From: Aggregatilinea lenta
GTDB taxonomy: Bacteria; Chloroflexota; Anaerolineae; Aggregatilineales; Aggregatilineaceae
DNA: 64,000 bases
Assembly (NCBI RefSeq): GCF_003569045.1
Contig: NZ_BFCB01000001.1
Span: forward strand, 1 to 64,000
Reading direction: 5' to 3'
Shown: piece by piece, positions 49,389-64,000 of the stretch
How positions within the stretch are numbered: position 1 is the stretch's first letter
Layout of the letters: each line of letters opens with the position of its first letter
Position numbers and translations under genes: made by a program
Notes under the pieces: generated by a model
The model's input: only the letters and a program-made list of their open reading frames with translations
What the model was told of the DNA's origin: nothing
Database searches by the model: none

Positions 49389-49859
49389 TCAGGAGGGGAT
49401 GTGCTTTTCCATGATCAGCCCGGCTTCGCCATCGCGATAATAGCCAGGGCGGCGCTCGACGATGGTGTAGCCGGTGTGGCGGTAGAGCGTCAGCGCAGGC
49501 ACGTTGCCTTCGCGCACGGTCAGGCGCACGGCCGGCTCGCGCAGGCGCTGTTCGGCGCGGGCCAGCAGCGCGCGGCCCAGGCCCCGCCGCTGGTGCGCCG
49601 GATGCACGCCGATTGTGATGATCCAGCCACGCGCCCGCAGCGGCGAACGTATGGCCGAGACGAACGCCGCCAGCGATCCGTCCGGCGCGACGATCTTCAG
49701 GTTGGTGACGCGCGGCGCGATGAACAGCAGCACGAGGTCGGCGTAGGGGTAAGCGTCGCGCGGGAAGATGCGCCGCTCCAGGTCGTGCACGGCGCGCAGG
49801 TCGAACAGCGTCGCGCGCGTGATGCGATAGCCGTCGGGGAGGGAGGAGGGACTGGTCAC
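49389..49859 (-). CDS. GNAT-family acetyltransferase (RimI-like)
   Basis: This 156-residue acetyltransferase of the GNAT fold has YRITRATLFDLRAVHDLERR at the N-terminus, the acetyl-CoA pyrophosphate-binding segment IGVHPAHQRRGLGRALL, and the RimI-like LTVREGNVPALTLYRHTGY and GLIMEKHI at the end. RimI-type enzymes acetylate protein N-termini. I place the start at the GTG at 49859, seven bases after the preceding gene's stop; longer in-frame readings run into that gene. It is the last gene of the PspA-like cluster. Confidence 0.85.
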   Translation of the reverse strand: MTSPSSLPDGYRITRATLFDLRAVHDLERRIFPRDAYPYADLVLLFIAPRVTNLKIVAPDGSLAAFVSAIRSPLRARGWIITIGVHPAHQRRGLGRALLARAEQRLREPAVRLTVREGNVPALTLYRHTGYTIVERRPGYYRDGEAGLIMEKHIPS

Positions 49860-49866
49860 GGACGGT

Positions 49867-50688
49867 TTAGCTGTGGCCTGCCGCCGTATAACTCTGGACT
49901 TCGTCGATGGCGGAGATCGTGTCTTGAAGCGAGAGCACCTCGTCCTTGATCTCCTGCTGGAGCCGCTGCGCGCGGGCGCTGTCAATATCCTTCGTGTCGA
50001 TGAGCTGGACCTGCGCGTAGACCGTGCCCAGCGCCGACAGCGTGTGGTCGAGCTGGATGTCGGCGCGCTTGAGCGAGTTTTCGAGGCTGCGGAGATTGGC
50101 GATCTGCGCCTCTTTGGTCTGGATCGCTTCTTCCAGCTCCGCCTTGACGCCGGGGTCCTGCTCGATGTTCAGGCGGCGGCGCAGGTTGGCCAGCTCCTGG
50201 GGGGCCATGCGGCGGTCGCGGTTGATGATCGCGTTTTCCTCGAAAGCGTCCATGCGGCGCGCAAGCAGGTAAATCTGCTCGATCCAGTCCGTGACCTCAT
50301 CGGCGGTCTGCTGCAGGCCAAGGCGCATCACGCCGCCGCGCTGCTGTGCCGTCTCGCCGATCAGGCGGCGATATTCCAGCGCGCGCTTCAGGCGGTCGCG
50401 GGCGATCAGGTTGCGGATGTCGCCGGGGTCGAAGCGGTCGGAGAGCATGTGATCGACGGCCTTCGCCGCCGCGTTGGGATCGGTGACGGTCGCGATCATA
50501 TAGGCCGCCTCCGCCACCGCGCCGAACACCAGCCAGAACCAGTTCTGCCAGAATTCGAACGGCGCATAGCCCAGGCCAAACAGCACCAGAGCCAGAGCGA
50601 TGATCACCGCGCTCTCAACGCTGAAAAAGGCCGTGCTGACGATCGCCCCCCAGGCGCGATCGCGCAGGTCGTCTTTGCCTTTCGACAT
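49867..50688 (-). CDS. Membrane-anchored coiled-coil protein next to PspA-like gene
   Basis: This 273-residue protein has two hydrophobic helices near the N-terminus (about 17-40 and 45-66), then a long charged region rich in Arg/Glu/Leu heptads. The pattern (about 75-265) suggests an extended cytoplasmic coiled coil. I do not recognise a named domain. It follows the PspA/IM30-like gene by about 120 bp on the same strand, and the GNAT gene follows within 8 bp. In PspA systems membrane-anchored coiled-coil partners recruit or regulate the ESCRT-III-like protein, so this could be a functional counterpart; that is inference from context and architecture only. Confidence 0.75.
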   Translation of the reverse strand: MSKGKDDLRDRAWGAIVSTAFFSVESAVIIALALVLFGLGYAPFEFWQNWFWLVFGAVAEAAYMIATVTDPNAAAKAVDHMLSDRFDPGDIRNLIARDRLKRALEYRRLIGETAQQRGGVMRLGLQQTADEVTDWIEQIYLLARRMDAFEENAIINRDRRMAPQELANLRRRLNIEQDPGVKAELEEAIQTKEAQIANLRSLENSLKRADIQLDHTLSALGTVYAQVQLIDTKDIDSARAQRLQQEIKDEVLSLQDTISAIDEVQSYTAAGHS

Positions 50689-50806: not shown

Positions 50807-51496
50807 CTAGCCGCCCTCGCCGCCCAGGCCGAGGCGCTGGCGGCGTTCCTGTAGCTGAAGCTCGATCTCGGTGGTGCCAATGGCCTCGTCGATCTGGTCG
50901 CGCACGTTGGTGGTCGCCATTTCCAGGCGGGCCTCTTCGCGGTCCAGGCGGGCGCGGATCTGGTCACCCAGGCGCTGCACGTCTTCATCCCCAACGCCAG
51001 CCAGATCGTCCAGGTTCTTGATCGTCTTGGTGGTCAGTTCCTTCGCCTCGACCAGTTCCAGCAGCGCCTTGAGATGTTCGCGCTCCTGCTTGATGGTCGT
51101 CAGCTTGGCTTCCAGCTTGAGCTTGGCGTCGAGCATGCGGCGGTATTCCTGCTCCTGCGACTGCCACTGCTCGTAATATTCCTGGGCCAGCTGCTGCTTC
51201 TGGTTCAGTTCCGCCTGCGCCGCCGCCGCCAGGTCGGCCTTGCCGCGCACCAGCAGCGTGTCGATGTCGCGGTCGAGCTTTTCCGCCGCCGCCGCGAACT
51301 CTTCGTACTTGCGCTTGAGCGTCTTAACCGTGCCGCCAATCGTCGCCGCCGAGTCGTCCAGCGCGTCCAGGTTGCGCTCGGCCTGGCGGACGTACTCGTC
51401 CATCACCTTGACCGAATTCGCTTCCAGCGCCTGGTCGACCAGACCGTGAATGTTGGCGGAAATGAGCGTGTTGATTTTTTGTAGCAGCGAAGCCAT
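50807..51496 (-). CDS. PspA/IM30-family (ESCRT-III-like) protein
   Basis: This 229-residue, almost wholly helical protein fits the PspA/IM30 (Vipp1) family: LISANIHGLVDQALEANSVKVMDEYVRQAE at the N-terminus (residues about 8-38, described here by position), then long Gln/Glu/Lys/Leu coiled coils through about 200. The length is typical. These proteins coat and repair stressed membranes. The ATG at 51496 follows a GGAGG-containing ribosome-binding site; an in-frame start at 51532 is less likely. No PspBC or PspF homologue is adjacent, but the downstream membrane coiled-coil gene may substitute as partner. C-terminal residues are Gly/Glu-rich. Confidence 0.85.
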   Translation of the reverse strand: MASLLQKINTLISANIHGLVDQALEANSVKVMDEYVRQAERNLDALDDSAATIGGTVKTLKRKYEEFAAAAEKLDRDIDTLLVRGKADLAAAAQAELNQKQQLAQEYYEQWQSQEQEYRRMLDAKLKLEAKLTTIKQEREHLKALLELVEAKELTTKTIKNLDDLAGVGDEDVQRLGDQIRARLDREEARLEMATTNVRDQIDEAIGTTEIELQLQERRQRLGLGGEGG

Positions 51497-51712
51497 AAAG
51501 GAGTTCCTCCTCAGAGTGCTATGCCGAGCCAAGTGAGCAGCAGAAACCAGGATGCATACCAGCGGCGAGGCGAGCCGGGGAGTGCCTCGCGTAGACGCTG
51601 CCGCGCCGCCGCCTGGGAGCCGTGTTTGCCCTCATGGTAACACGAAACGGGCGGTTCCCCTGACGGTCGCCTGACGATCTTCTGACAGGTGCGCGAGTAC
51701 AGCGCGCTGCGC

Positions 51713-52846
51713 CTAGTTTTCGGCGCCTTCGTTGGCCACCGGGAGGTAGATCACAAACGTGCTGCCTTCCCCGAAGGTGCTCTGGACGTTGACGGAGCCG
51801 CCGTGCAGCCGCACGACGCCGTCCACAATCGCCAGCCCCGACCCCGCGCCCTGGTCCTCGTACTTCTCGCGGTTGATCTGGTAGAAGCTGTCGAAGATGA
51901 TTTCCAGCTCCTGGGGCGGGATGCCACGTCCCCGATCCTGCACCTGAAATGCGACCACGTCGCCGTCTCGATAGACGCGGATCGTCACCGGCTGGCCGGG
52001 CTTGTCCGAAAACTTGACGGCGTTGTCCATCAGGCATTCCAGCGCCGCAGAGAAATAGTCCATGTCCACGAACACCGGCGGCAAATCGTCGTCGACCGAT
52101 ACCTCGATGCCAACGCTGTGTTCCTGCGCCAGATCGTAGTACTTGCTCTGGATGCCGTACAACAGCGCTTCATAGCTGGTAAACAACCGTCTACGCCAAT
52201 TATACGTATTTTCGGCTTCACTCGTTTCGAGTTCCACGAGCAAAATGAAGTTTTCGACCAGACGGCGCAGCCGTCCCGCCCCGGCATTGATGCCGCGCAG
52301 GAAGGCGCGCATGTCGTCTTTGCTCAGATCGTCGGCGTCGCGGTGCAGCATATCGGCGTAAGCCACCACGTAGGTGAGGGGGGTGCGCAGCTCGTGGTTG
52401 AGGATGGTCAGGATGTTGTGCTTGATGTCCGACACTTCGCCGTGCCAGGCGTTATCAAGCTGCTTTTTGCGGTCGAGCTTGGCGGCCACGGCCACCAGCA
52501 GGTCGTCGGCGTCGAAGGGTTTGACGACATAATCCTCCGCTCCCATACGCTTGCCCCGGTGGATGTCGTCACGCTCGCCTTTGGCCGTCAGGAAAATAAA
52601 CGGGATCATGACCCAGTTCTGATGCGCGCGCACCGCGTTGAAGAAGTCGTAGCCATCCATGCGGGGCATCATGATGTCCGACACGATCAGGTCTGGCGCT
52701 TTCGGCTGCGTGCTGAGCACTTCTAACCCGGCGACGCCATTCGTGGCGGTCAGCACATCGTAGCCGTTCAGCTCCAGGATATCCCGGATGCCTTCCATCA
52801 GGTGCATGTCATCTTCTACAACCAGAATCGTAGCCGCGCTACCCAT
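51713..52846 (-). CDS. Receiver-histidine kinase hybrid (REC-HisKA-HATPase)
   Basis: This 377-residue cytoplasmic protein has an N-terminal receiver domain (Asp57 in LIVSDIMMPRMDG, Lys109 in YVVKPF) followed by HisKA with His151 in NHELRTPLTY. A HATPase domain follows with DNAVKFSD, DRGRGIPPQELE, IFDSFYQ and the variant G box GAGSGLAIVDGVVRLHGG. The ATG at 52846 is preceded by GGAGGGAAGGG and overlaps the stop of the giant kinase upstream (ATGGGTAG), so the two are translationally coupled. The simplest reading is that the giant kinase phosphorylates this receiver, which then tunes its own kinase domain. The output partner is not in the window. Confidence 0.92.
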   Translation of the reverse strand: MGSAATILVVEDDMHLMEGIRDILELNGYDVLTATNGVAGLEVLSTQPKAPDLIVSDIMMPRMDGYDFFNAVRAHQNWVMIPFIFLTAKGERDDIHRGKRMGAEDYVVKPFDADDLLVAVAAKLDRKKQLDNAWHGEVSDIKHNILTILNHELRTPLTYVVAYADMLHRDADDLSKDDMRAFLRGINAGAGRLRRLVENFILLVELETSEAENTYNWRRRLFTSYEALLYGIQSKYYDLAQEHSVGIEVSVDDDLPPVFVDMDYFSAALECLMDNAVKFSDKPGQPVTIRVYRDGDVVAFQVQDRGRGIPPQELEIIFDSFYQINREKYEDQGAGSGLAIVDGVVRLHGGSVNVQSTFGEGSTFVIYLPVANEGAEN

Positions 52847-55800
52847 TCCCTTCCCTCCAGTACACGGACTGTTCTTGTGGCTCATAAACGGGCAGCTTCA
52901 AACGGAACGTGCTGCCGCGACCCTGTTCGCTCTCGACTTCGATGCTGCCGCCATGAAGCCCCATGATCTCCTTGATGATCGCCAGCCCCAGGCCGGTGCC
53001 GGGCACGCTCGGGTTCACGTTGGACCCCCGGTAGAAGCGATCGAAGATATTGGGCAGTTCATTGGCCGGGATTCCGATTCCCGTATCGACGGTTTCAATA
53101 ATAACCCATTCCGGTTCACCCTGCTCAGAGCGTCCCACCTCACTGCGCACGACGATTTGCCCACCCGGCGGCGTGTAATTGATCGCGTTGCTGACCAGAT
53201 TGGTCAGCGCCCGCAGCAGTTGGTCGGGATCGCCGTAGACCAGCGGCAGGGTGCCGTTCGTGCCCTCGTATTGCAGATCCTCCTGGGCGCTTTCGGCCCA
53301 GGCGATGTTGTTCTGCACGACGGTATCGATCACCAGTTGCAGATCTACCGGCTGGCGGACCTGCGGGCGCTCGGCGCGCTGCTCGCTTTGCAAGCGCGAC
53401 AGATCTAGCAGCTCCACAATCAGGCGCTCCAGCCGCTCGACCTCACGGCCCATCACTTCGAGGTAGCTCGCGCGGCGCTCCGGGCGACCTTGTTCCAGCA
53501 GCGACAGGTACAGTTTAAGGTTCGCCAGCGGCGTGCGCAGCTCGTGCGAGACGTTCGAGACAAAGTGATCCTTCATCCGGTCCAGCTCTTGGAGCTGCGA
53601 GATGTCGCGCAGGATCACGACCGAACCCAGTAACTGGTCACCTTCGAGCACGCGCGCGGCCTTGGCCTGCAGCGCCACCACGCCCAGCTCGATGATCTCG
53701 GTCGCGTCGCTGATGTCGGCCTCGTTGTACAGCACGCGGTTGACCAGCGCGCGGATGCGCAGACTAAGGTCCATATTCAGGTCGTGCTGCTCGAACAGGT
53801 CCTTGGCAACCGGGTTGGTCAGCACCACGTGGCCGCTCAGGTCGAAGACGATGACGGCGTCCGCCACGGAGCGCAGGATCGCTTCAGTGCGCTCCTGCTG
53901 CTCGCGGATCTCCGACGTGCGCTCGATCACGCGCGCTTCAAGCTCCAACGTCTGCTGGCGCACGCGCTCGAACAGGCGCGCGTTGGAGACGGAGATCGCA
54001 AGCTGCGCCGCAAGCGGTTCCAGCACGTTGAGGTCTTCCGGCGTGATGCTAAAGTGGCGCTGGCGCTCGACGACCATCACGCCGATCACCTCGTCGGCCA
54101 CGATCAGCGGGATCCCCAGCGAACAGCACTCGATCGAGCCGCCGTTGAGCGTGGAGAAGCCGTCACACAGGCGGTTTTGCAGCACCGGCTCGCCCTGCTG
54201 CACGGACTGCCACGCCACCCCGTCGGGGGATAGGTAGTAGCCGTCCGGCGTATCGTCCACGTAAATCGAGGGGCGGCCCGCAAACAGCGAATGGATGACC
54301 AGATGATCGTCCTCGACCTGAAGCAGGCCGATCATGTCGTAGTGCAGGATGTCGAACAGCTTGCGCGCGACGCCCTCGATGAGGCTGGACAGGCTGAGGA
54401 TCGCGGTTGCGTAGCGTCCCACTTCGTTGACCAACCGCAGCTGGTCGAGATGGTGGCGGATCTCGTCGAACAGGCTCGCGTTCTGGATGGTCAGCGCGGC
54501 CTGCACGCCCAGCAGCCGGATCTGTTCCGTCAGCCAGTCGGCATAGGCGTCGGGATTTTCCGTATCGACCAGCAGCAGCGTGCCGATGGGCACGTCCGCC
54601 TTGACCAGCGGCACGGCGATGACGGCCTGCGCGTGCGTGCTCTCGATAAACTCCGGCGGCAGCGCGCTGGACTGGGCCACGCGGTTGACGAAGTGCGGAC
54701 GCCACTGGTGGATGACGTAGGCAGGCAGCAGCGTATCGTCTTCCAGGGCGTAGCTGCTCCCGATGAACTGTTCCGAACCGGGGCCATACGCCGCCGTCCC
54801 GACCAGCCGGTCACCCTCGATCAGCCACAGGTAGGCGCCCTGCGCGCCGAACACGCCCGCGCTCTCCTGGCAGATCAGGTTGAGCACGGCCCCGCTGTCG
54901 AGCTGCGAGCTGATCGCCAGCCCCAGCCGTCCCAGGTCCGTCGAGAGCGCCTCGCGCCGCAGGGTATTCTCGAACAGCGCGGCATTGTCCATCACCACAC
55001 CCAACTGCTGCCCAATGTTCGCCAGCAGTTGCTTCACTTCCGTGTTGAACGGCATGTCCGGCTGGCACACGCTCAGGAGACCGATCGCCGCCCCGTGCGA
55101 GAGCAGCGGCACGCTGTAAAACGTGAAGGTCTGCCCATCCCCCAGCCGGACCGGCGACAGCTCCGTAGCGTTGGGCACGCAGCTCAGCCGCGCGCACAGC
55201 TCGTCGGGCAGGCCGGACGCGGCCAACAGGTGCAGCTCGTTGGAGGGCACGTCGCGCCGGTGGATGGTGCCGCCGCTGATACTCAGCGTTTCGAGCACAC
55301 GTTCCAGCGAGACGGTGACGAGGTTGTCCTGTGTCAGCACTTCATTACTGGCCGCCAAAATCGTGTTCAGCGCGCGCAGAGCGCGGTTCTGACGGCTGGC
55401 TTCTTCGAGCAGGCGGAAGTTCTCAATCGCCGCCGCGATCTGGTTGGCGAAGGTTTGCACGAGATGGAAAGAGTCGGTCGTGAACTTGTGCGGCTCGTAG
55501 CTGTCGATGTGCAGGAAGCCGATCACCTGATCGCGCACGATCAGCGGCGCGCCGATCCAGCAGCGCACCTCCTGGTAACTGTACTGGCCCGGACGCCACC
55601 AGCGGTTCTGGCGCGTGTCGGTGACCAGCATGGCGCGCTTCGTCTCGAAGATGCGCTGGCTGAGCGGGTAAATCGACAGGGCCAGCGTCGTTTCTGCCGG
55701 GAGCGGCGTGGTGACCGGGTAGATCGCGCGCAAGGTCCACTGGCGGTCGTCCTCGTCGAGCAGGCCGATATGCGCCTGATCAAAGTCGAGCACCTGATCG

Positions 55801-57953
55801 AGCGTGCGCAGCGCCAGATCCAGGGCGCTGTCCAGGTCCGCGCTGGACACCAGATCGTACGAGGCGCGCTGAAGCAGCTCCGCCTGCACGCGGCGGCGCT
55901 GCTCGTTTTCAAACAACTGCGCATTTTCGACGGCGATCACCGTCTGGCCTGCGAAGGCCGTCGCGATCTGAAGGTCGGCGTCGGTAAAGTGGCCGGGCCG
56001 GGCATGGGCAAGGCTCAGACAGCCCAGCACCTGATCGTGGATGATGAGCGGGATGCCGATCCACGAGCCGTGCTGAAACCCGCTTTGAATCCAGTCGGCA
56101 TCGATTGTCGTGTCGACGACGAGCTGCGGCGCGTGCTGGGTGAACATCTGAAGCATGTACGGGTAGCGCGCGATCTCGATCCGCACCTCGGAAATCGGCT
56201 TCTCGTCCGAGCCGGGCGTGAAGCCGTGGTAAGCACACACGCGCAGACGCCCCGGCTCGGCCATCAGCAGCACCGTCGCACGGTCGTAGTCCAGAATGGT
56301 GAACAGCCGCTGGAGCATGGCGTGCAGCGCGTCGTCCAGCTTCATGCTGCTCAGCAGGCTGGCGACTTCGCGCAGGGCCTCGGCCACCCGACGTTGGTGG
56401 CGCTCCTGGCTGTGCAAGCGCGCGTTGTCGATCGCCACACCGATCTGCCGGGCGACGCTGCCGAGCATCGCCACCTCGACCTGATCGAACTCGCGCGGCT
56501 GCTCGCTGCCCAGTTGCAGCACCCCGATCACCCGGCTGCGCGCCACCAGCGGCACGGTGATGCCGGTCCGCATGTTGAACTTGCGCAGGTGCGCGCTGAA
56601 GGTGCTGCCTTCGTCCGCGTCGGTGCTGACCACCGTCTCGTGCGTCTGGATGACCTGCCCCGCCGTGCTTTCGTCGATGATCAGCGTCTCAGGCGAAAAT
56701 CCGTGCTTGTCGGGCAGGGTGGAGCTGCCTGCCAACACCAGCATGCCCGGTTGGTGCTCGTCCAGCAGGTACGCGACCGCGTTGCTCAACCGCGTGATCG
56801 CCAGCACCTGGCTGAGCGCGCGCGTGATGACCTGATCCAGCTCCAGAGAGGCGGAAATATCGGCGCTGATGGCGCTGAGCACCATCAATTCCTGGCTGCG
56901 TTCGTTGAGGTTATGCCGGATGATCGACGCCGTGATATCGCGGAAGGCCAGCAGCTGCGCGCCGGGCACAACGCCGACATGCTCGAACGGCGTCAGCGTG
57001 AGCCGCACGAAGTATTCTTCGCCGTCGCGCTGCACTTCGCACTCGGCGGTGGAGATTTCGTGCGCCAGCATGCGCCGGATCGGCCCGGCAAACGCCGAGC
57101 CGCGCGCCAGCTCAAGGACGTGTCCGGGCGCAAGGCCGCTCAGGTCGCGCCCGCCGATCCAACCCAGCGCCGGGGCGTTTTTCCACAGGACGCGGGCATT
57201 GGAATCGAGCACCAGATAGCCGTCGTTGAAGCTGCCGAAGACCGAATCCAGCAATGTTTCGAGCGCTACTTCCCGCCGCGACTTGAGCACCAGCGCCGAC
57301 ACGCCTAACACCGGCATTGCGAAGCCCAATGCGGCGATGCCCGGCATGGCCCGCCACCCGGCCAGGGGCGACAGCAGCGGAATGACGCTGCTGAACAGCG
57401 CGACGAGCATAAACGGCAGCCCGGTCCGCCAGAAGCGGATGCGGCCCTGGCGCACCGCCAGCGCGAGGATCGTCCCCACCACCGCCTGCCCGAATGCCAT
57501 GAACAGCACGGCCAGCACCCACCGGTGCATCAACTGCAAGACGATCCACAGCAGCGCAAACCCAGCCGGATCGCGCGCTACCACCACCGGATCGTCCGCG
57601 CTGGCGAACATCGCCAGCAGCCCGACGTCGATTGCCACGTTGATCAGCACCATCGCGGTCAGGACGCGTGCGCGGTGCAGCCGCAGCCACGATTCGTAAT
57701 AGAGGCCCAGCAGTGTCAGGGGCAAAAGGACGAGGTAAATCCAGGTGGAAACCAGCGTAACGACGACGAACGCAGCCCGCGCCAGCGCGGCGTCGGTCGT
57801 CGTCGTGATGATGAAGCTGCACATCGTGGCGCCTGCGACGACGAGCAGGTATGTGGTCAAGACAAGACTCGCCAGACCACGGGGCCGCCGTTGATAGACC
57901 ACCGTCGCCAATAAAATGTAGAGGCAAATCAAAGGGATAAGTAGATACGCCAT
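52839..57953 (-). CDS. Giant membrane histidine kinase with six GAF and two PAS domains
   Basis: This 1704-residue kinase begins with seven or so transmembrane helices (about residues 1-225), then PAS (about 230-345). Six consecutive GAF domains follow at about 350-515, 518-680, 684-850, 850-995, 998-1160 and 1164-1335. Next come a coiled coil, a second PAS (about 1365-1455), HisKA with His1470 in NVSHELRTPLA, and HATPase (NLVSNAINYTPPGG, DTGIGIPANELP, IFDRFYRGS, GTGLGLAIIKEIMGLHGG). Each GAF keeps strand patterns such as IGVLQLG, LGCLSLAHA, IGFLHIDSYE, IGLLSVCQ and IGTLLLVD. I chose the ATG at 57953 because the first helix then starts immediately; 57998 is an alternative. It overlaps the receiver-kinase gene, and the ATPase-winged-helix gene lies 172 bp upstream. 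Confidence 0.92.
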   Translation of the reverse strand: MAYLLIPLICLYILLATVVYQRRPRGLASLVLTTYLLVVAGATMCSFIITTTTDAALARAAFVVVTLVSTWIYLVLLPLTLLGLYYESWLRLHRARVLTAMVLINVAIDVGLLAMFASADDPVVVARDPAGFALLWIVLQLMHRWVLAVLFMAFGQAVVGTILALAVRQGRIRFWRTGLPFMLVALFSSVIPLLSPLAGWRAMPGIAALGFAMPVLGVSALVLKSRREVALETLLDSVFGSFNDGYLVLDSNARVLWKNAPALGWIGGRDLSGLAPGHVLELARGSAFAGPIRRMLAHEISTAECEVQRDGEEYFVRLTLTPFEHVGVVPGAQLLAFRDITASIIRHNLNERSQELMVLSAISADISASLELDQVITRALSQVLAITRLSNAVAYLLDEHQPGMLVLAGSSTLPDKHGFSPETLIIDESTAGQVIQTHETVVSTDADEGSTFSAHLRKFNMRTGITVPLVARSRVIGVLQLGSEQPREFDQVEVAMLGSVARQIGVAIDNARLHSQERHQRRVAEALREVASLLSSMKLDDALHAMLQRLFTILDYDRATVLLMAEPGRLRVCAYHGFTPGSDEKPISEVRIEIARYPYMLQMFTQHAPQLVVDTTIDADWIQSGFQHGSWIGIPLIIHDQVLGCLSLAHARPGHFTDADLQIATAFAGQTVIAVENAQLFENEQRRRVQAELLQRASYDLVSSADLDSALDLALRTLDQVLDFDQAHIGLLDEDDRQWTLRAIYPVTTPLPAETTLALSIYPLSQRIFETKRAMLVTDTRQNRWWRPGQYSYQEVRCWIGAPLIVRDQVIGFLHIDSYEPHKFTTDSFHLVQTFANQIAAAIENFRLLEEASRQNRALRALNTILAASNEVLTQDNLVTVSLERVLETLSISGGTIHRRDVPSNELHLLAASGLPDELCARLSCVPNATELSPVRLGDGQTFTFYSVPLLSHGAAIGLLSVCQPDMPFNTEVKQLLANIGQQLGVVMDNAALFENTLRREALSTDLGRLGLAISSQLDSGAVLNLICQESAGVFGAQGAYLWLIEGDRLVGTAAYGPGSEQFIGSSYALEDDTLLPAYVIHQWRPHFVNRVAQSSALPPEFIESTHAQAVIAVPLVKADVPIGTLLLVDTENPDAYADWLTEQIRLLGVQAALTIQNASLFDEIRHHLDQLRLVNEVGRYATAILSLSSLIEGVARKLFDILHYDMIGLLQVEDDHLVIHSLFAGRPSIYVDDTPDGYYLSPDGVAWQSVQQGEPVLQNRLCDGFSTLNGGSIECCSLGIPLIVADEVIGVMVVERQRHFSITPEDLNVLEPLAAQLAISVSNARLFERVRQQTLELEARVIERTSEIREQQERTEAILRSVADAVIVFDLSGHVVLTNPVAKDLFEQHDLNMDLSLRIRALVNRVLYNEADISDATEIIELGVVALQAKAARVLEGDQLLGSVVILRDISQLQELDRMKDHFVSNVSHELRTPLANLKLYLSLLEQGRPERRASYLEVMGREVERLERLIVELLDLSRLQSEQRAERPQVRQPVDLQLVIDTVVQNNIAWAESAQEDLQYEGTNGTLPLVYGDPDQLLRALTNLVSNAINYTPPGGQIVVRSEVGRSEQGEPEWVIIETVDTGIGIPANELPNIFDRFYRGSNVNPSVPGTGLGLAIIKEIMGLHGGSIEVESEQGRGSTFRLKLPVYEPQEQSVYWREGNG

Positions 57954-58125
57954 GCGGTCGGACCAACCCCCACAGAGATATTGCCTACAGTATAGCATGT
58001 ACTATTCATTTACGATTGCCACGCAATAGGCACAGACTGTCCAGTCGACAGAGCCTCACATAAGACTGCATGTACGCCAATCATAGCCCGGTTAGAGGGA
58101 GCCTATTGCCCGCCAGCGGCGGCGA

Positions 58126-59514
58126 TCAAGTCACCGCGCCCTGCGCGCTGTTCAGCTTGTAGCCCCGCCCGCGAATCGTGCTGATAAACTGAGGATTGGA
58201 CGGGTCCGGCTCCAGCTTGGATCGCAAGCGGCTCACCAGCTTTTCGATCCGCGCGTCGTCCACCTCGCCCATGTAGTCCTGGCCCCACACCGTGTCCACG
58301 ATCTGATACTTGTCACAAATTTTGTCCAGACGGCCATACAGCAGCAGCAGCAGCCGGTATTCCAGGTCAGTCAGCGGCTCGACACGGCGGCCATCGACCC
58401 AGACCCCACCCGCGTCGATGTCCACCCACACTCCCGCCGGGACTTCCTGCTGGATCAGGCGCTGCCGCCGGGCATAGTTCTCGAACAGGCGGCAAAACAG
58501 CCGGACACCCTGCTCGTCACTGACCAGCATGCCGCGCCCCAGCAGCGCGCCGCGCTGCACGTCCGATAGCGCGTCGACGCCCTGCGTCGCGGCCAGCGTG
58601 GTCCACTCGCGCTCAGCGGGCGCAAGCTGGTTCCACAGCTTGATCAGCTCGCTGCGCACCAGCCGGTGATTGCTCAGCACGTCGTTGGCGACGCTTAGCG
58701 CCTGCTCGGTATACGTCACCGGCGCGCCGGACTCGACCTCCATGACCACATGCGCGACCGCATGGATCAGGCCGGGATGCCCGCCCGCCTGGTCGAGGAT
58801 GAAGTCGCGCTCCGCCGGATCGAGCGAATCGTGCGCCTGGTGGAAGATGTCGGCGGCCAGCCGCACCGAGTCCGTCGGGGACAGCGGCTCCAGGTAGTGC
58901 TTGTACGCGCCGAACGGCTCCAAAAACTCCGCGAGGTCGTCACCCGCCTCCAGCGTCGAAGTAGGCCGCAGCGTCGCGATCACATAGTTGAGCTGCGACG
59001 CATAGTTGTCCTTGAGCGCGCGCAGGTTCAGGAAGACGCGCTCGTCCAGCCCGGTCAGCACCGCATCGAACTCGTCCAGGATCAGGATCACTTCCTGCGA
59101 GTCGTCGGCCTGGATCAGATCCAGCAGCGCGTCGTTGAACGCCAGCGGAATGGTGAAGGAGTTCTGCGAGCGCACGACCGTCTGGTAATGCTCGTCCAGG
59201 CGCGCCAGCAGCGGCTGGGGCGTGGGCTTCTGGCCGGAGAGCGTCTCGATCACCGCGCGCAGCACGACCTCGTAAAAGCCCTGGGCGCTCATTTCGAGCA
59301 TGCGATTGCAGTCCACGTAGACGAACAGCGCCGGATGCCCGACGCGCTGCTCGTATGACTGCGCGAAGGCCGATTGGGCGACGTGCCGCAGCAGCGTCGA
59401 TTTGCCGAAGTTGCTCAATCCCACCAGCGAGATCGGCTGCCCGACCACCAGCATATCCAGGATGTCCGCCGCGTCACGGGGCCGGTAGGGCGTCAGAGTG
59501 TGTCGTTCAGACAT
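58126..59514 (-). CDS. P-loop ATPase fused to an OmpR-type winged helix
   Basis: This 462-residue protein has an N-terminal AAA/STAND-like ATPase (Walker A GLSNFGKSTLL at residues 32-42; Walker B VILILDEFD with Asp147-Glu148; a sensor-like RPTSTLEAG). A helical region spans about 230-340, and a C-terminal OmpR/PhoB winged helix spans about 365-462 (GVWVDGRRVEPLTDLEYRLL, then ARIEKLVSRLRSKLE and STIRGRGYKL). There is no receiver domain. The architecture suggests a DNA-binding regulator controlled by nucleotide-driven conformational change rather than phosphorylation. It lies on the same strand directly upstream of the giant kinase and receiver-kinase, so the three could form one signalling unit. 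I know of no named family with exactly this fusion. Confidence 0.85.
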   Translation of the reverse strand: MSERHTLTPYRPRDAADILDMLVVGQPISLVGLSNFGKSTLLRHVAQSAFAQSYEQRVGHPALFVYVDCNRMLEMSAQGFYEVVLRAVIETLSGQKPTPQPLLARLDEHYQTVVRSQNSFTIPLAFNDALLDLIQADDSQEVILILDEFDAVLTGLDERVFLNLRALKDNYASQLNYVIATLRPTSTLEAGDDLAEFLEPFGAYKHYLEPLSPTDSVRLAADIFHQAHDSLDPAERDFILDQAGGHPGLIHAVAHVVMEVESGAPVTYTEQALSVANDVLSNHRLVRSELIKLWNQLAPAEREWTTLAATQGVDALSDVQRGALLGRGMLVSDEQGVRLFCRLFENYARRQRLIQQEVPAGVWVDIDAGGVWVDGRRVEPLTDLEYRLLLLLYGRLDKICDKYQIVDTVWGQDYMGEVDDARIEKLVSRLRSKLEPDPSNPQFISTIRGRGYKLNSAQGAVT

Positions 59515-59802: not shown

Positions 59803-61539
59803 TTAGCTCGGTGTACGCAGCTTGCGCGCGATGACCACGACGGACACCAGTCCCGCCGCCGCGATTGCCAGCAGCGTCAGACCGTTGGTGCCATCAATGT
59901 CGCCCGCCTGATCGGCGATGTCGGAGAAGAAGCCCGTGGTGGGCAGTGCCGAGGGCAGCGCCTCTACGCCGGCTTCTTCCGTAGCCATCTCAAGAGTGGG
60001 CGGGGTCGTGGGCGACACGCCCAGTTCCGCGAGCGCCGTCATGGTCGCACTGATACCTTCCAGGTCCGGCGTGGGCGTGGGCGGAATGCCGACCGTAAAG
60101 GTGATCTCGCCCGCCGTCGGCACATTCACCTGGATCAGGACCTCGTCCGTGGGCGGGATCTGCGCCTGGATGTCGGCTGGCAGCGACGTGTAATCGACCA
60201 GCAGCCAGTAGACACCCGGCTCCAGCGAGCCGAAGTCGAACTCGCCGCCTTCGCCGGTGATAATCTCGCCGATGAACTCGTCGCCCAGCTCGATGGTCGG
60301 CGTGGGCTGTGCGCCCTGGCGGCTGCCGCTGACCAGCACGATGTGGCCCTCGCCGCCGGACGGATGATACGCCGCGCCGCCCGCTTCTTCGGTCGCGCCG
60401 GCGTCGGCGGTCGCTTCAGGCTCCGGCCCAGCAGACGCCGGATTATTGGGCGTGGTCAGCGTCAGCGTATAGTCGCCGGGGCCGGACACACTGCTGACCC
60501 GCAAGGCGTAGGTGCCGTCTTCGGGCAGCTCAAAGTTCTCGATGAGCGCGTTCAGGCCGTCGCCGCTGTCGTCGTCTTCGGCCACAATCGTACCGTCCGG
60601 GCCGACCATCTCGACGAACATATCCATGCTGACTTCGTCACCGGCCACCGCGCTAACGGTGACCACGTCACCCGCGCTGCCGTCGAAGACCCACTCGACC
60701 GGGGTCGTGTCTTCCAGCGTCTCCGTCATGGCTTCACCGTAAGCGATGGAGGGCGCTTCTTCGGTCGCGCCAGCAGTCGCCTCTTCGAAGGGCACACCGG
60801 TCACTGCGAGGGGAGTGCCTTCTTCGGGGATGGTCACGGTCGTCACGTCGGACGGCGTAAACACGCCGTCGCCGTCGTCACGGTAGAGCCGGATCGTCAC
60901 GCCCGAAAACGGGTTGTTCGATTCGTCCACCAGATGCCCGGAGAGGCGCGCGGCCACGGCCACGGCGGTCTGCGTCGCGCCGTTCGACTGCGCCACAGCG
61001 GTTCCGGTCGCGTCGTTCGCTTCCGCCTGAGCGGTCTGCGTCGCCTGACGCGCGGCAGCGGTCGAGGCGGCCTGTTCGGCGGCAGACGTCGCGGCAGCCA
61101 CCGCCGTCTGCGTAAGCTGCGCTTCGGCGGTGGCCGTCGCAGCGGCGTTAGCCGCGGACTGTGTCTGCGCCTCAAAGATGGCGTTCTGCGTCACCGTCCC
61201 GGCCAACTCGAACTCGCGCACGGCGGTCTGGCTGGCTTCGAAGGCGATCTGTGCCGCCGTCTGCGTATATCCAAAATTCATCGCCACTGCGGTGTTGGTC
61301 TGAATGACGGCAGTCGAGGTCAGCTCGTTGGGGCTTACTTCATCGCCGCCGCCCAGGGCCAGCACGATCAGGATCCCAACGATGGCGATGACCGCCAGCA
61401 TGAGCAGCGCGCCGACGATCTTAAACGTCCGGCTGATGCCGCCCTCATCCGGTTCTTCGAAGCCCGGCAGATCCAGGTCTTCTTCGAACGGTGGCATCTC
61501 GTCCAGTTCGCTCAGGTCGTCCAGGTCTTCGAAGCCCAT
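59803..61539 (-). CDS. Bitopic surface protein with Ala/Thr/Gln coiled region, PPC-like domain and LPTTG sorting-like motif
   Basis: This 578-residue protein has an acidic cytoplasmic N-terminus (1-36), a transmembrane helix (about 40-63), an Ala/Thr/Gln-rich helical stretch (about 75-200), and a small strand domain (about 203-255). A PPC-like domain follows (about 280-370: VVTVSAVAGDEVSMDMFVEM, then ENFELPEDGTYALRVSSV), then linkers and another beta domain (about 400-500). Near the C-terminus are LPTTG (residues 532-536), then a hydrophobic helix (about 555-572) and RKLRTPS. LPXTG plus helix plus basic tail is a sortase signal, although the gap before the helix is long and an N-terminal anchor is already present. 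The start follows GGAGGGAATT. It is downstream of the lipoyl-like and MutL-like genes, probably co-transcribed. Confidence 0.8.
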   Translation of the reverse strand: MGFEDLDDLSELDEMPPFEEDLDLPGFEEPDEGGISRTFKIVGALLMLAVIAIVGILIVLALGGGDEVSPNELTSTAVIQTNTAVAMNFGYTQTAAQIAFEASQTAVREFELAGTVTQNAIFEAQTQSAANAAATATAEAQLTQTAVAAATSAAEQAASTAAARQATQTAQAEANDATGTAVAQSNGATQTAVAVAARLSGHLVDESNNPFSGVTIRLYRDDGDGVFTPSDVTTVTIPEEGTPLAVTGVPFEEATAGATEEAPSIAYGEAMTETLEDTTPVEWVFDGSAGDVVTVSAVAGDEVSMDMFVEMVGPDGTIVAEDDDSGDGLNALIENFELPEDGTYALRVSSVSGPGDYTLTLTTPNNPASAGPEPEATADAGATEEAGGAAYHPSGGEGHIVLVSGSRQGAQPTPTIELGDEFIGEIITGEGGEFDFGSLEPGVYWLLVDYTSLPADIQAQIPPTDEVLIQVNVPTAGEITFTVGIPPTPTPDLEGISATMTALAELGVSPTTPPTLEMATEEAGVEALPSALPTTGFFSDIADQAGDIDGTNGLTLLAIAAAGLVSVVVIARKLRTPS

Positions 61540-61594: not shown

Positions 61595-62677
61595 TCAGCC
61601 GAGCAGTTCCAGGTTGACCAACGCGATGGCGGTGATGCGACCGCTCGGCAGCCTCACGCGGGCACTCGGCAGCCGCAGACCACTCTCGGTGACCTGCGGT
61701 TCAGGCGGCAGCTCGACTACTTCAACAACGAGACCGTCCCACGGCGCGCGCACGATCCGCACACGGTCGCCTATTTCCAGGGCGCGGTCAACCGTAGGGG
61801 CGGGCGGCATGGCGCTGCCGGACGGCAGCGGGATCAATATTTCCGGGCGCTCGCCCGTCCAGCGATCGGGAAGTGCGGCATTGAAGGCAGCCTGACGGCC
61901 CACACTGCTGCCCAGGAGCTGGTAGATCGCGTCGGTCGGCCTGCGCTGACCAAATCCCTCGGTCAATATTACAGGGAATGTAAGCCGCAACGCCAATTCG
62001 CGCAAGTTTGAGGGCATGCTGGGCGCGACGACGCCCGCCACTTCCTGCTGTTCCGCGATGGCAAGGTCGCGCTTGGTGAGCGGATCGGGGCTGATGACCA
62101 CCACGCGACGGTATTCCGAAATACGCATGTCGATCTGGTTCAGACCGGTGAAGCCGTCTTCCGGCAGAAAGCGGAACGTCTCGAACCCCAGGCGGCCATT
62201 CCCCCACGCGCACTGGATCAGCGCGCCCGTGGTGGAGATGAGCACGGTGTTATTTTCCGCCTGCTCGACCTGCCCCGGAATGCCCGCGAACACCTCGACC
62301 GAGCGCTCGATCGTCTGCAGCACGATCTCCGCGCCCTCGACGCGCGTCACCTGCCCGTCGACGGGCGAGACGACCGTCTTCATACGGCGGCCCCGGCCTC
62401 GCTGGGCGAGCACCTGCCCCGTCTCGACGTGCTGGCCCTCACGGACCTGCATATAGCTCGCCAGTTGGACCGGATCGGTGACGTTCTTGGCGATGCCGCT
62501 GATGTCGACCGTGTGCAGCGCGCCCAATACCTCGCCTTGCAGCACGGCCTGGAACGCCTCGACGTTCATGCGCGGGGTCGCCTGCATCTCGCGCAGAACG
62601 ACGCCCGGCGGCAGCCTGCGCTCGCGCTGCACCCGCGCGAGGCCCATCACGATCGACGTTTCAGGATAGTACGGCAT
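61595..62677 (-). CDS. Lipoyl/biotinyl-like domain protein next to MutL-like gene
   Basis: This 360-residue protein of unknown function has a half-barrel resembling the lipoyl/biotinyl fold at about 75-130 (VREGQHVETGQVLAQRG, then MKTVVSPVDGQVTRVEGAEI) without a modifiable Lys motif. The central part contains TTGALIQCAWGNGRLGFETF and FPVILTEGFGQRRPTDAIYQ. The C-terminal 90 residues look like a small barrel (LEIGDRVRIVRAPWDGLVVE), similar to KOW-type modules. The ATG at 62677 follows AGGAGGACG and lies inside the end of the MutL-like gene, giving a 17-bp overlap and coupling. The domain without a modification site suggests a structural or export-adaptor role like membrane-fusion proteins. Confidence 0.75.
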   Translation of the reverse strand: MPYYPETSIVMGLARVQRERRLPPGVVLREMQATPRMNVEAFQAVLQGEVLGALHTVDISGIAKNVTDPVQLASYMQVREGQHVETGQVLAQRGRGRRMKTVVSPVDGQVTRVEGAEIVLQTIERSVEVFAGIPGQVEQAENNTVLISTTGALIQCAWGNGRLGFETFRFLPEDGFTGLNQIDMRISEYRRVVVISPDPLTKRDLAIAEQQEVAGVVAPSMPSNLRELALRLTFPVILTEGFGQRRPTDAIYQLLGSSVGRQAAFNAALPDRWTGERPEILIPLPSGSAMPPAPTVDRALEIGDRVRIVRAPWDGLVVEVVELPPEPQVTESGLRLPSARVRLPSGRITAIALVNLELLG

Positions 62678-64000
62678 GGGCCGCGTCCTCCTGGGGCGCC
62701 AGCACTTCTTCACCCGGCTCGTCCGGGGCGACATCGCCGCCGGTCATGGCCGCCAGCCAGCGCTCGAAGCGCGCCACCCGCTCTTTGGGGCGCGGCAGCG
62801 CCAGTGGACGTCCGCGCGCGTCGAAGATGATGCCCGCCGCGCCCGCCACCACGTGCAGCTTGAGCCGCCGCTTGCCGTTGATCGACAGGCCGCGCCGCAG
62901 CTTGATCGACACATTGCAGACCATGCCGGGCGACACGGGAGCCATCCAGATCTCGCCGCCGCGCACGGTGTGCGTGATCGTCCGGCCCGACGCCGGGCGG
63001 ATCTGCACGGTCATCGCGCTCTGGCCGTTCCGCGCCGCGCCCAGCGGACTGAACGCCGTCGCCAGCGGCAGCAGCGCGTCGCCGTCCAGCATCTGCACGG
63101 TGATGATCGGCTTGAGATAGGCCGCCACACCCAGACCGGACAGCAGGTTGTACGGGTCCAGCCGCAGCTCGGTGATACCCACCGGCTGGAGCGCGTCCAG
63201 CAGCAACATGGCCGACACGCCGGGATGCTGCGCGTCGGTCAGCACCGCACCCGCCGCGATCACCGGGCTAAACGCGGGCGGCAGGTCGCCGCGTCCCAGG
63301 CCCCACTCGGCGCGCGACCCGCGCACCATGCGCCGCACGATCTCGCGCGCGACCGCCTGCTCGATCATCAGATCGCGCGGGCTGCCGGGCACGGTCGCCG
63401 GGCGCAGCGCCTTGTTATGCGCGTAATCCCACAGCTCGTCGTCGGTCACGTCCGGCGGCAGCCACTTACGCAGCGTGTCGAGCTTGAGCGTGTCGAGGGT
63501 ATCAACGAGGCTGTGGCCGATGCCCAGCCCGGTATGGACCGAAAAGCGTGTCTCTTTGTGCACGCCCGCGACGAGCGCGCTGTTGGTGCTGCCAATGTCC
63601 ACCACCAGCGGGCCAACACCGCGCCGGGGCAGCTCCGTGAGGTAGCGCACCGCGCTGATCGTGCCCTGCACCGTCGGCACGATGCCGATTGGGCTATAGC
63701 GCGCGACCTCGGCAAAGCCGCCGGGCTGGTGGCTGCGGAAATCGTCGTAGGCCAGGGACAGTTCGATCTGCGCGGGGAACACCTGCTCCTCGCGCATGTC
63801 AGGGCGCACGTTAGGCGCGTAGAACATCGCCGCGCGCGTCGAGAGCAGGCGTTTGATCTGCGGGCGCAGCGCGCGGTTGCCCGCGTACAGCACGCTCGGC
63901 GGCTGGCCGCGCATCGCCATCAGCGCGTCACGTACGGTCCCGGCCATGTCGAGCACGAGCGATTCCGTGCCCTCGTCGGTGCCGCCCGCGATCAGGATCA
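62661..64000 (-). CDS. MutL-like (glutamate mutase L) ASKHA protein, 5' end outside window
   Basis: At least 446 residues lie in the window; the start is beyond base 64000. The sequence matches the glutamate mutase L family, ASKHA ATPases related to actin and Hsp70. Visible are AGGTDEGTESLVLDMAG at the truncated N-terminal side and the phosphate loop VVDIGSTNSALVAGV, then LGIGHSLVDTLD, AAGAVLTDAQHPG and a C-terminal domain of small strands (WMAPVSPGMVCNVSIKLRRG). In B12-dependent mutase systems MutL may act as a chaperone or reactivase, but no mutase subunit is present in this window. Here it is coupled to a lipoyl-like protein and followed by the LPTTG surface protein, so a different role is plausible. 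Confidence 0.85.
   Translation of the reverse strand, partial: ILIAGGTDEGTESLVLDMAGTVRDALMAMRGQPPSVLYAGNRALRPQIKRLLSTRAAMFYAPNVRPDMREEQVFPAQIELSLAYDDFRSHQPGGFAEVARYSPIGIVPTVQGTISAVRYLTELPRRGVGPLVVDIGSTNSALVAGVHKETRFSVHTGLGIGHSLVDTLDTLKLDTLRKWLPPDVTDDELWDYAHNKALRPATVPGSPRDLMIEQAVAREIVRRMVRGSRAEWGLGRGDLPPAFSPVIAAGAVLTDAQHPGVSAMLLLDALQPVGITELRLDPYNLLSGLGVAAYLKPIITVQMLDGDALLPLATAFSPLGAARNGQSAMTVQIRPASGRTITHTVRGGEIWMAPVSPGMVCNVSIKLRRGLSINGKRRLKLHVVAGAAGIIFDARGRPLALPRPKERVARFERWLAAMTGGDVAPDEPGEEVLAPQEDAAHAVLS

Follow-up and report, generated by a model that had tools for sequence, protein, structure and literature searches.

A STAND-like ATPase with an OmpR/PhoB-type winged helix as a proposed regulator of pspA in the Anaerolineae

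What does an ATPase with a DNA-binding tail do beside two signalling kinases when it carries no receiver domain? The question is raised by three genes of Aggregatilinea lenta (Chloroflexota; Anaerolineae), which lie in a stretch of 64,000 nucleotides (contig NZ_BFCB01000001.1, positions 1 to 64,000; hereafter the window) of a 6.2-Mb genome that is 98% complete. They encode an ATPase-winged helix protein (here the ATPase), a giant kinase (GK) and a receiver-kinase (RK). A sequence-only reading of the window had taken the three for one module, perhaps a relay in which nucleotide state and phosphorylation converge. Comparison across the class suggests a different answer: the locus is probably the control locus of the envelope-stress protein PspA, encoded just behind RK, with the ATPase as the regulator of pspA and the kinases as variable or second inputs. 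The three genes are co-oriented, as that reading stated, with 172 bp between the ATPase gene and GK and an overlap of 8 bp (52839-52846) between GK and RK. The features on which the argument turns are these:

58126..59514, minus strand: ATPase-winged helix protein, 462 aa; STAND-like ATPase with a C-terminal OmpR/PhoB-type winged helix; proposed pspA regulator
57989..57997, minus strand: extended -10 (TGCTATACT) ahead of GK; probable separate promoter
52839..57953, minus strand: GK, 1,704 aa; 7TM-like N-terminus, PAS, six GAF, weak PAS, HisKA, HATPase_c
51713..52846, minus strand: RK, 377 aa; receiver-HisKA-HATPase; directly upstream of pspA
51660..51686, minus strand: promoter region of pspA, triple GTCAG box with a period of 11 bp; proposed site for the ATPase winged helix
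51634..51642, minus strand: predicted pspA promoter, extended -10 (TGTTACCAT) 17 nt past the third repeat
50807..51496, minus strand: PspA/IM30-family protein, 229 aa; sole match over the Pfam cut-off in the genome

The ATPase gene and its partner

The gene after RK encodes a PspA/IM30 protein by a score of 53.8 bits against a Pfam cut-off of 33.9; the second PspA match in the genome reaches 31.9 bits, below that cut-off. How faithfully does the ATPase gene accompany pspA? A profile of 42 ATPase sequences, with four candidates scored per genome, matches 155 of 396 genomes of the class at E 1e-50 or better. Eighty loci were picked by hand among the matches listed, mostly one per genus, and 73 of these are evaluable, seven having been dropped with less than 2.5 kb downstream. 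pspA lies downstream of the ATPase gene, on the same strand and within 6 kb, in 43 of the 73, and directly behind it (gap below 700 bp) in 38; the linkage is found in 21 of 31 families. Neither an RK nor a GK orthologue stands between the two genes in 39 of the 43 linked loci, the exceptions being three loci of family f27, with RK, and one of f38, with GK and RK. No adjacency of the ATPase gene and pspA was seen in families f10, f11, f12, f16, f22, f23, f39, f42, f47 and f49; most f42 loci have a small gene, c7, beside the ATPase gene instead of pspA. On an ATPase tree (a quick one, with 30 open forks) adjacency of pspA reaches into deep branches of the main clade and needs 11 changes, as against three for the insertion of RK and two for that of GK.

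RK, for its part, adjoins pspA in 14 of 21 order-mates (families f2, f6 and f8) that have no ATPase-winged helix. Because so many ATPase-pspA loci have no kinase between the two genes, and because RK stands beside pspA without the ATPase, the trio is not the conserved unit; judged from gene order, GK is a variable addition. The signalling locus described by the sequence-only reading is nonetheless real. In f1, the family that includes the window, the ATPase gene, GK and RK stand side by side in 11 of the 13 genomes in which their arrangement is visible; what did not hold is the trio as the unit of conservation, since the widespread partner of the ATPase is pspA. The two f1 exceptions are G011, where the ATPase gene is on another contig with no kinases behind it, and G005, where it is gone from an otherwise intact locus with GK, RK and pspA. 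(Outside this count are G006, G010 and G014, at contig edges, and G007 and G012, without a full ATPase match.) In f4, GK is absent from all four evaluable loci, which hold the ATPase gene, RK and pspA.

The protein itself was correctly described as something other than a normal response regulator. Its OmpR-type DNA-binding domain is a strong match to Trans_reg_C (2.8e-18, 66.2 bits against a cut-off of 26.2), and the Pfam search gave no Response_reg. The AAA matches are weak, AAA_22 scoring 27.9 bits against a cut-off of 27 and AAA_16 and NACHT falling under theirs, and Sigma54_activat is not among the matches at E up to 0.01. Across the 42 aligned sequences, the GKS of Walker A, the DEF of Walker B and the GH of a GGHP motif are invariant. 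The ATPase part, with a winged-helix subdomain of its own, spans approximately residues 1-357, and the C-terminal winged helix approximately 358-458. In a fold search with the predicted model (pLDDT 88.9), residues 4-357 matched 2qen at Z 20.1 (305 aligned residues, 4.9 A, about 12% identity), with NLRs and ORC/Cdc6 also among the best matches at Z of about 15-19, and residues 358-458 matched the DNA-binding domains of VicR/YycF at Z of about 15. By sequence and predicted fold the ATPase part appears STAND-like. An NB-ARC label was dropped, since an NB-ARC search of the genome gave ten matches, none of which is this ATPase; a PADLOC scan gave weak generic matches only. Family f7 has a relative of the ATPase without the winged-helix tail (L074-L080), mostly beside a gene with segments that we take to be HD-like and helix-turn-helix-like.

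The GTCAG box ahead of pspA

If the ATPase regulates pspA, where would it bind? The pspA upstream regions carry three direct repeats, GTCAG-N6-GTCAG-N6-GTCAG, for which 51 of 54 regions score at least 11/15, against 3.1% of dinucleotide shuffles. The spacer of 6 is specific, spacers of 3-5 and 7-9 giving 1-5 of 54, and the GTC of the middle repeat and the GTCA of the third are near-invariant. In the 44 of these 51 regions with sufficient flank, an extended -10 begins 17-19 nt past the third repeat in 39, and the -10 score is at least 9 in 37, against about 1.6 of 44 in shuffles. Such a spacing would put the third half-site into the -35 region, as at promoters activated by PhoB-type regulators. 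A scan for consensus sigma-70 promoters found none with both hexamers, the predicted promoters being of the extended -10 type.

The box is rare. In the window, the copy at pspA is the only match with two mismatches allowed, and the exact triple box occurs once in the genome, at pspA. With one mismatch there are 17 copies, against 11 for a reversed-pattern control; three of these (C2:1043281, C2:1185678 and C2:1815849), each ahead of an open frame, were set aside as candidate targets, the total being near that of the control. The frames behind them presumably encode secreted-like, small membrane-like and kynurenine-formamidase-like proteins.

A strict pattern of box plus -10 is found at 37 places in 34 of 80 genomes, and its reversed control at none. 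PspA is encoded directly downstream in 26 of the 30 strict-pattern loci returned; of the others, L303 ends before PspA, L313 and L320 extend only 0.15-0.3 kb past the site, and in L315 no PspA is found within 1.5 kb. Four of the seven places without a locus coincide with the pspA loci L128, L135, L139 and L147. Known pspA promoters do not account for six of the places (G077:C78, G066:C346, G080:C377, G102:C337, G103:C464 and G121:C49), and the box is therefore largely, not strictly, linked to pspA. At G080:C377 (L324, site 2764) box and extended -10 lie ahead of a gene for what we take to be an SPFH/band-7-like membrane protein, a possible second target of the regulator that uses the pspA box. 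At G077:C78 (L322) they lie 0.3 kb before a presumably MurE-like gene. The further copies away from known pspA are in L323 (G066:C346), L327 (G121:C49), L325 (G102:C337) and L326 (G103:C464), some of them at contig ends.

The ATPase gene does not appear to be a target itself. Its upstream regions reach 11/15 in four cases only, which is the background level, and autoregulation through the box was rejected on this ground. Where pspA is not adjacent, the 0.7 kb behind the ATPase gene gives best scores of 8-12/15 and no convincing copy. Over 772 kb from 45 loci of this kind, the only box-plus-minus-10 was the pspA one of L010, and c7 of f42 does not appear to be a target either.

Which protein, then, goes with the box? 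Box and -10 were combined into one call with a threshold of 18, set once before the result was seen. All 55 pspA genes with a linked ATPase-winged helix pass, which is no independent test, since the box and its spacing to the -10 were learned from linked loci. The test is carried by the sets not used to define the box: the call is positive in 10 of 16 genomes where a main-clade ATPase is present and unlinked, in none of four with the distant ATPase subfamily of f39 and f49, and in five of 40 without an ATPase-winged helix, the rate in shuffles being 1.3%. (Of 38 PspA places, 30 had loci that were read and 29 were counted. Left out were L208 of G006, at a contig edge; L277, with a partial PspA; L257 of G182, with a weak PspA beside the ATPase and a box of 13/15; and L258 and L259, second PspA copies with 9/15 each.) On a PspA tree, among independent pairs that differ in the ATPase, the box agrees in six, opposes in none and shows no difference in four (median p 0.031, range to 0.125).

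The box reaches 11/15 in one of the 21 order-mates of f2, f6 and f8, inside coding sequence, and in none of seven f7 regions. Because it is largely absent where RK is kept without the ATPase (f2, f6, f8) and where the ATPase relative has no tail (f7), the distribution points to the ATPase tail, and not the kinases, as the reader of the box. The kinases were rejected as readers because they have no DNA-binding domain and because the order-mates keep RK without the box.

The kinases and the other neighbours

What do the kinases contribute? The six GAF domains that the sequence-only reading counted in GK were recovered both piecewise and with a profile of their own, the fourth being weak and divergent (1.5e-5, under the Pfam cut-off). 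That reading had not mentioned the seven hydrophobic segments at the N-terminus (by a crude hydropathy count), the PAS domain ahead of the GAF array or the second PAS after it, just under the cut-off. RK indeed has no DNA-binding output, Pfam giving Response_reg, HisKA and HATPase_c only. The suggested six ligands are not a fixed number, as GK orthologues carry 6, 5, 4 or 3 GAF domains. A GK orthologue in the position that it has in the window was seen only in f1 and in one f38 locus.

Counting the window, 11 f1 loci have between -47 and +168 nt from the stop codon of GK to the earliest start that RK could use, seven of them 18-23 nt; the 8-bp overlap as such is not conserved. An extended -10 (TGNTATACT) lies ahead of GK in seven of these 11 loci, that of the window at 57989-57997 among them; the shuffle rate, for the window's gap alone, is 3.8%. 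The four loci without it all belong to genus g6, and it is also present in L073, where the contig breaks off within GK. Because of this element, GK is probably transcribed separately, together with RK, in most of f1. The sequence-only reading had named separate transcription and a lack of conserved linkage as what would speak against its module; separate transcription of GK is indicated, and the linkage of the trio is found in f1. A phosphorelay from GK to RK is plausible, and the catalytic motifs of both kinases are presumably intact. In L261 (G006:C405) two tandem RKs stand between GK and pspA, apparently by duplication of RK.

Kinases of a similar kind also occur on the other side of the ATPase gene. 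Among the 72 of 80 loci with at least 1.5 kb upstream, a GAF-array histidine kinase with 4-10 GAF-like domains lies 25-156 bp upstream on the same strand in L116 (f29), L129 (f26) and L134 and L157 (f35), a single-GAF kinase lies 13 bp upstream in L118 (f42), and a kinase fragment is found in L137 (f35). The recurrence of the pairing in another arrangement favours some functional link between the ATPase and GAF-array kinases, not a fixed trio. The kinase of L116 (13431-19721, minus strand) has 2,097 aa with ten GAF-like domains, nine of which pass a stretch test against Pfam GAF_2, and a PAS domain; it ends 67 bp upstream of the ATPase-winged helix gene.

The block continues past pspA with c10 and an acetyltransferase gene, and other genes lie upstream of the ATPase gene:

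49867..50688, minus strand: c10, hydrophobic N-terminus and long helices; recurrent neighbour downstream of pspA; no Pfam match
49389..49985, minus strand: GNAT acetyltransferase (start uncertain), found in this neighbourhood in f1 and f4 loci
59803..61539, minus strand: surface protein upstream of the ATPase gene; N-terminal hydrophobic segment, PPC-like region, C-terminal motif that we take to be LPTTG-like, and hydrophobic segment
61595..62734, minus strand: c4, barrel-sandwich-like region; upstream neighbour that follows a MutL-family gene (identified by Pfam MutL in L002)

c10 accompanies pspA in many Anaerolineae loci and is a possible new PspA partner; it is often behind genes that are presumably solute-binding or VWA-like. 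An ESCRT claim for c10 was not made, since its model has a pLDDT of 71 and its best fold match, at Z 11.5, is in the range that is uninformative for helical models with this tool. Two genes with PspC domains lie elsewhere in the genome, unlinked to pspA (G000:C4:338142 and C4:434261). Surface proteins upstream of the ATPase gene, with examples in f1, f3 and f4 (the window, L067 c32 and L064 c29), have an LPTTG/LPSTG-like end with a hydrophobic segment and a basic tail, and at the N-terminus an acidic stretch followed by a hydrophobic segment; they presumably resemble sortase substrates. In many families, also where pspA is absent, the ATPase gene has upstream of it a recurrent cluster that encodes a barrel-sandwich-like protein and two membrane-like proteins and includes a MutL-family gene (PF13941); examples are 61595-62734 and upstream in the window, and L002:4496-7009.

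Possible modes of PspA control

How might the locus work? The receiver-less ATPase would act as a nucleotide-switched transcription factor, presumably switched by ATP. Its STAND-like part would control oligomerisation, and its OmpR/PhoB-type tail would bind the three tandem GTCAG half-sites, one per DNA turn. Since the half-sites end about 20 bp before the pspA -10, the ATPase bound there would recruit the housekeeping RNA polymerase. RK would be a second, independently conserved input linked to PspA, and GK a variable sensor, probably with its own promoter and plausibly feeding RK. The sign of the regulation, and any feedback of PspA on the ATPase, are points that we infer.

Several observations weigh against this model, the evidence for which is all comparative. 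There is no pspA within 6 kb in 30 of the 73 evaluable ATPase loci, and four f3 genomes (65-92% complete) keep the ATPase with no PspA match found; in these four the ATPase may have a role other than pspA. Six of the 16 genomes with an unlinked ATPase fail the combined call. G005 and G072 have no ATPase in otherwise intact loci and yet a good box, G095 has a box without a full ATPase match (the contig ends 0.9 kb upstream), and G025 (f2) and G044 (f7) are borderline in the combined call. Furthermore, the box resembles the pho boxes of E. coli, whose TGTCA direct repeats share its 11-bp period (PMC10294691), and a PhoB-like regulator could bind it.

The pho boxes and the two ATPase-less genomes favour an alternative in which the box belongs to another OmpR-family response regulator, for example a PhoB-like one, and the winged helix of the ATPase serves other genes. 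The ATPase would then be linked to pspA otherwise, for example through ESCRT-type remodelling of PspA polymers; AAA+ ATPases beside PspA are reported as probable remodelling partners in the accessible part of PMC11237479, and the persistence of the ATPase in the f3 genomes also suits another role. This alternative is unlikely, however, because the box tracks the ATPase-winged helix, not pspA or the kinases, even when the ATPase is unlinked. It also falls short of 11/15 in all of the tail-less f7 relatives (with G044 borderline in the combined call), and a single exact triple copy in the genome speaks against the alternative too. The reported AAA+ partners, moreover, have two AAA domains, a VPS4 architecture, or a coiled coil with beta-propeller repeats, and no winged-helix tail in what PMC11237479 describes in that part.

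The relay of the sequence-only reading, in which GK phosphorylates the RK receiver and the ATPase is the output where phosphorylation meets ATP state, is conceivable and rather doubtful. It is favoured by the tight coupling of GK and RK, by overlap in the window and by short spacing in seven of the 11 f1 loci and also in L170 of f38; by the ATPase and RK being adjacent or in one locus in f1, f4, f27 and f38; by the GAF kinases upstream of the ATPase gene; and by the catalytic motifs, which we take to be intact. Against it, the ATPase has no receiver to take the phosphate, and the probable promoter of GK speaks for separate expression. Nor do the ATPase and RK depend on each other, because the one is linked to pspA with no kinase between them in 39 of 43 loci and the other sits beside pspA in 14 of 21 order-mates that have no ATPase-winged helix. 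Might the ATPase instead repress pspA, to be released by ATP hydrolysis or stress? Sites over the -35 region are compatible with repression as well as activation. The fixed spacing to the extended -10 is an activator-like geometry, however, and strict spacing is noted at PhoB-activated promoters (PMC10294691, in part), so that repression seems improbable. The regulator model, with the ATPase acting at the box, is the reading preferred here.

How does such a regulator compare with known ones? The predicted fold of residues 4-357 resembles that of the archaeal STAND/AAA+ proteins PAB2304 (2qen) and SSO1545 (2fna), the NB-ARC domains of NLRs and ORC/Cdc6; unlike the PAB2304 and SSO1545 group, from which it is far in sequence, the ATPase has an OmpR-type DNA-binding domain appended. 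STAND transcription factors such as MalT and AfsR/SARP likewise join the ATPase to a DNA-binding domain; theirs belongs to a different class or sits at the opposite end, and they have large sensor repeats, which the protein described here appears to lack. The box resembles pho boxes in consisting of direct repeats with an 11-bp period ahead of a promoter, to be read by an OmpR/PhoB-type winged helix (PMC10294691, in part), and differs in its three half-sites, GTCAG core, one exact genome copy and proposed drive by an ATPase domain instead of a receiver. As in LiaRS-LiaH and other two-component systems, kinases are encoded beside a PspA homologue (PMC11237479 and PMC9239133, in part); unlike in LiaRS-type systems, receiver and DNA-binding domain are in different proteins, and there is no receiver-winged-helix regulator among the three.

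A counterpart in function is PspF of E. coli, a receiver-less AAA+ sigma-54 enhancer-binding activator of the psp genes that is inhibited by PspA (PMC3128695, in part). Like PspF, the ATPase would regulate psp genes as a receiver-less transcription factor, and as with PspF-type activators it is encoded near pspA (in 43 of 73 evaluable loci), which in the window sits behind both kinases. Unlike PspF, it combines a STAND-like ATPase with an OmpR-type tail and a box adjoining an extended -10, and it has no sigma-54 activator domain. Sigma-54 itself (PF04552) has no match in the genome (G000), with matches in four of 14 control genomes.

Surveys of PspA neighbourhoods list AAA+ ATPases, two-component systems and helix-turn-helix regulators beside pspA and, in their accessible parts, no ATPase-winged-helix protein (PMC11237479, PMC9239133). 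In those parts, PMC11237479 mentions Chloroflexi once, for a PspA-PspAA fusion; neither Chloroflexi nor Anaerolineae occurs in the main text of PMC9239133. No description of the pairing of the ATPase-winged helix with pspA was found among the open-licence full texts listed. The ATPase-winged helix with the pspA box would be a new form of PspA control.

A bolder proposal, which can be offered only tentatively, is that the Anaerolineae evolved a PspF equivalent of their own, which in the genome of the window works without sigma-54: an NLR-like STAND ATPase with a PhoB-type tail, held inactive by PspA and freed by membrane damage. PspA would thus, by convergence, control the activator of its own gene, and in several lineages GAF-array kinases and RK would have been wired to the same promoter. 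If the proposed control is real, the PspA regulator of a little-studied bacterial class would have a precisely defined DNA target, and the task that PspF performs in enterobacteria, that of coupling an ATPase to the state of the membrane, would have been solved a second time by unrelated means. It would become testable whether PspA generally regulates by contacting ATPase regulators, and the predicted box would allow targets to be read in many uncultured genomes.

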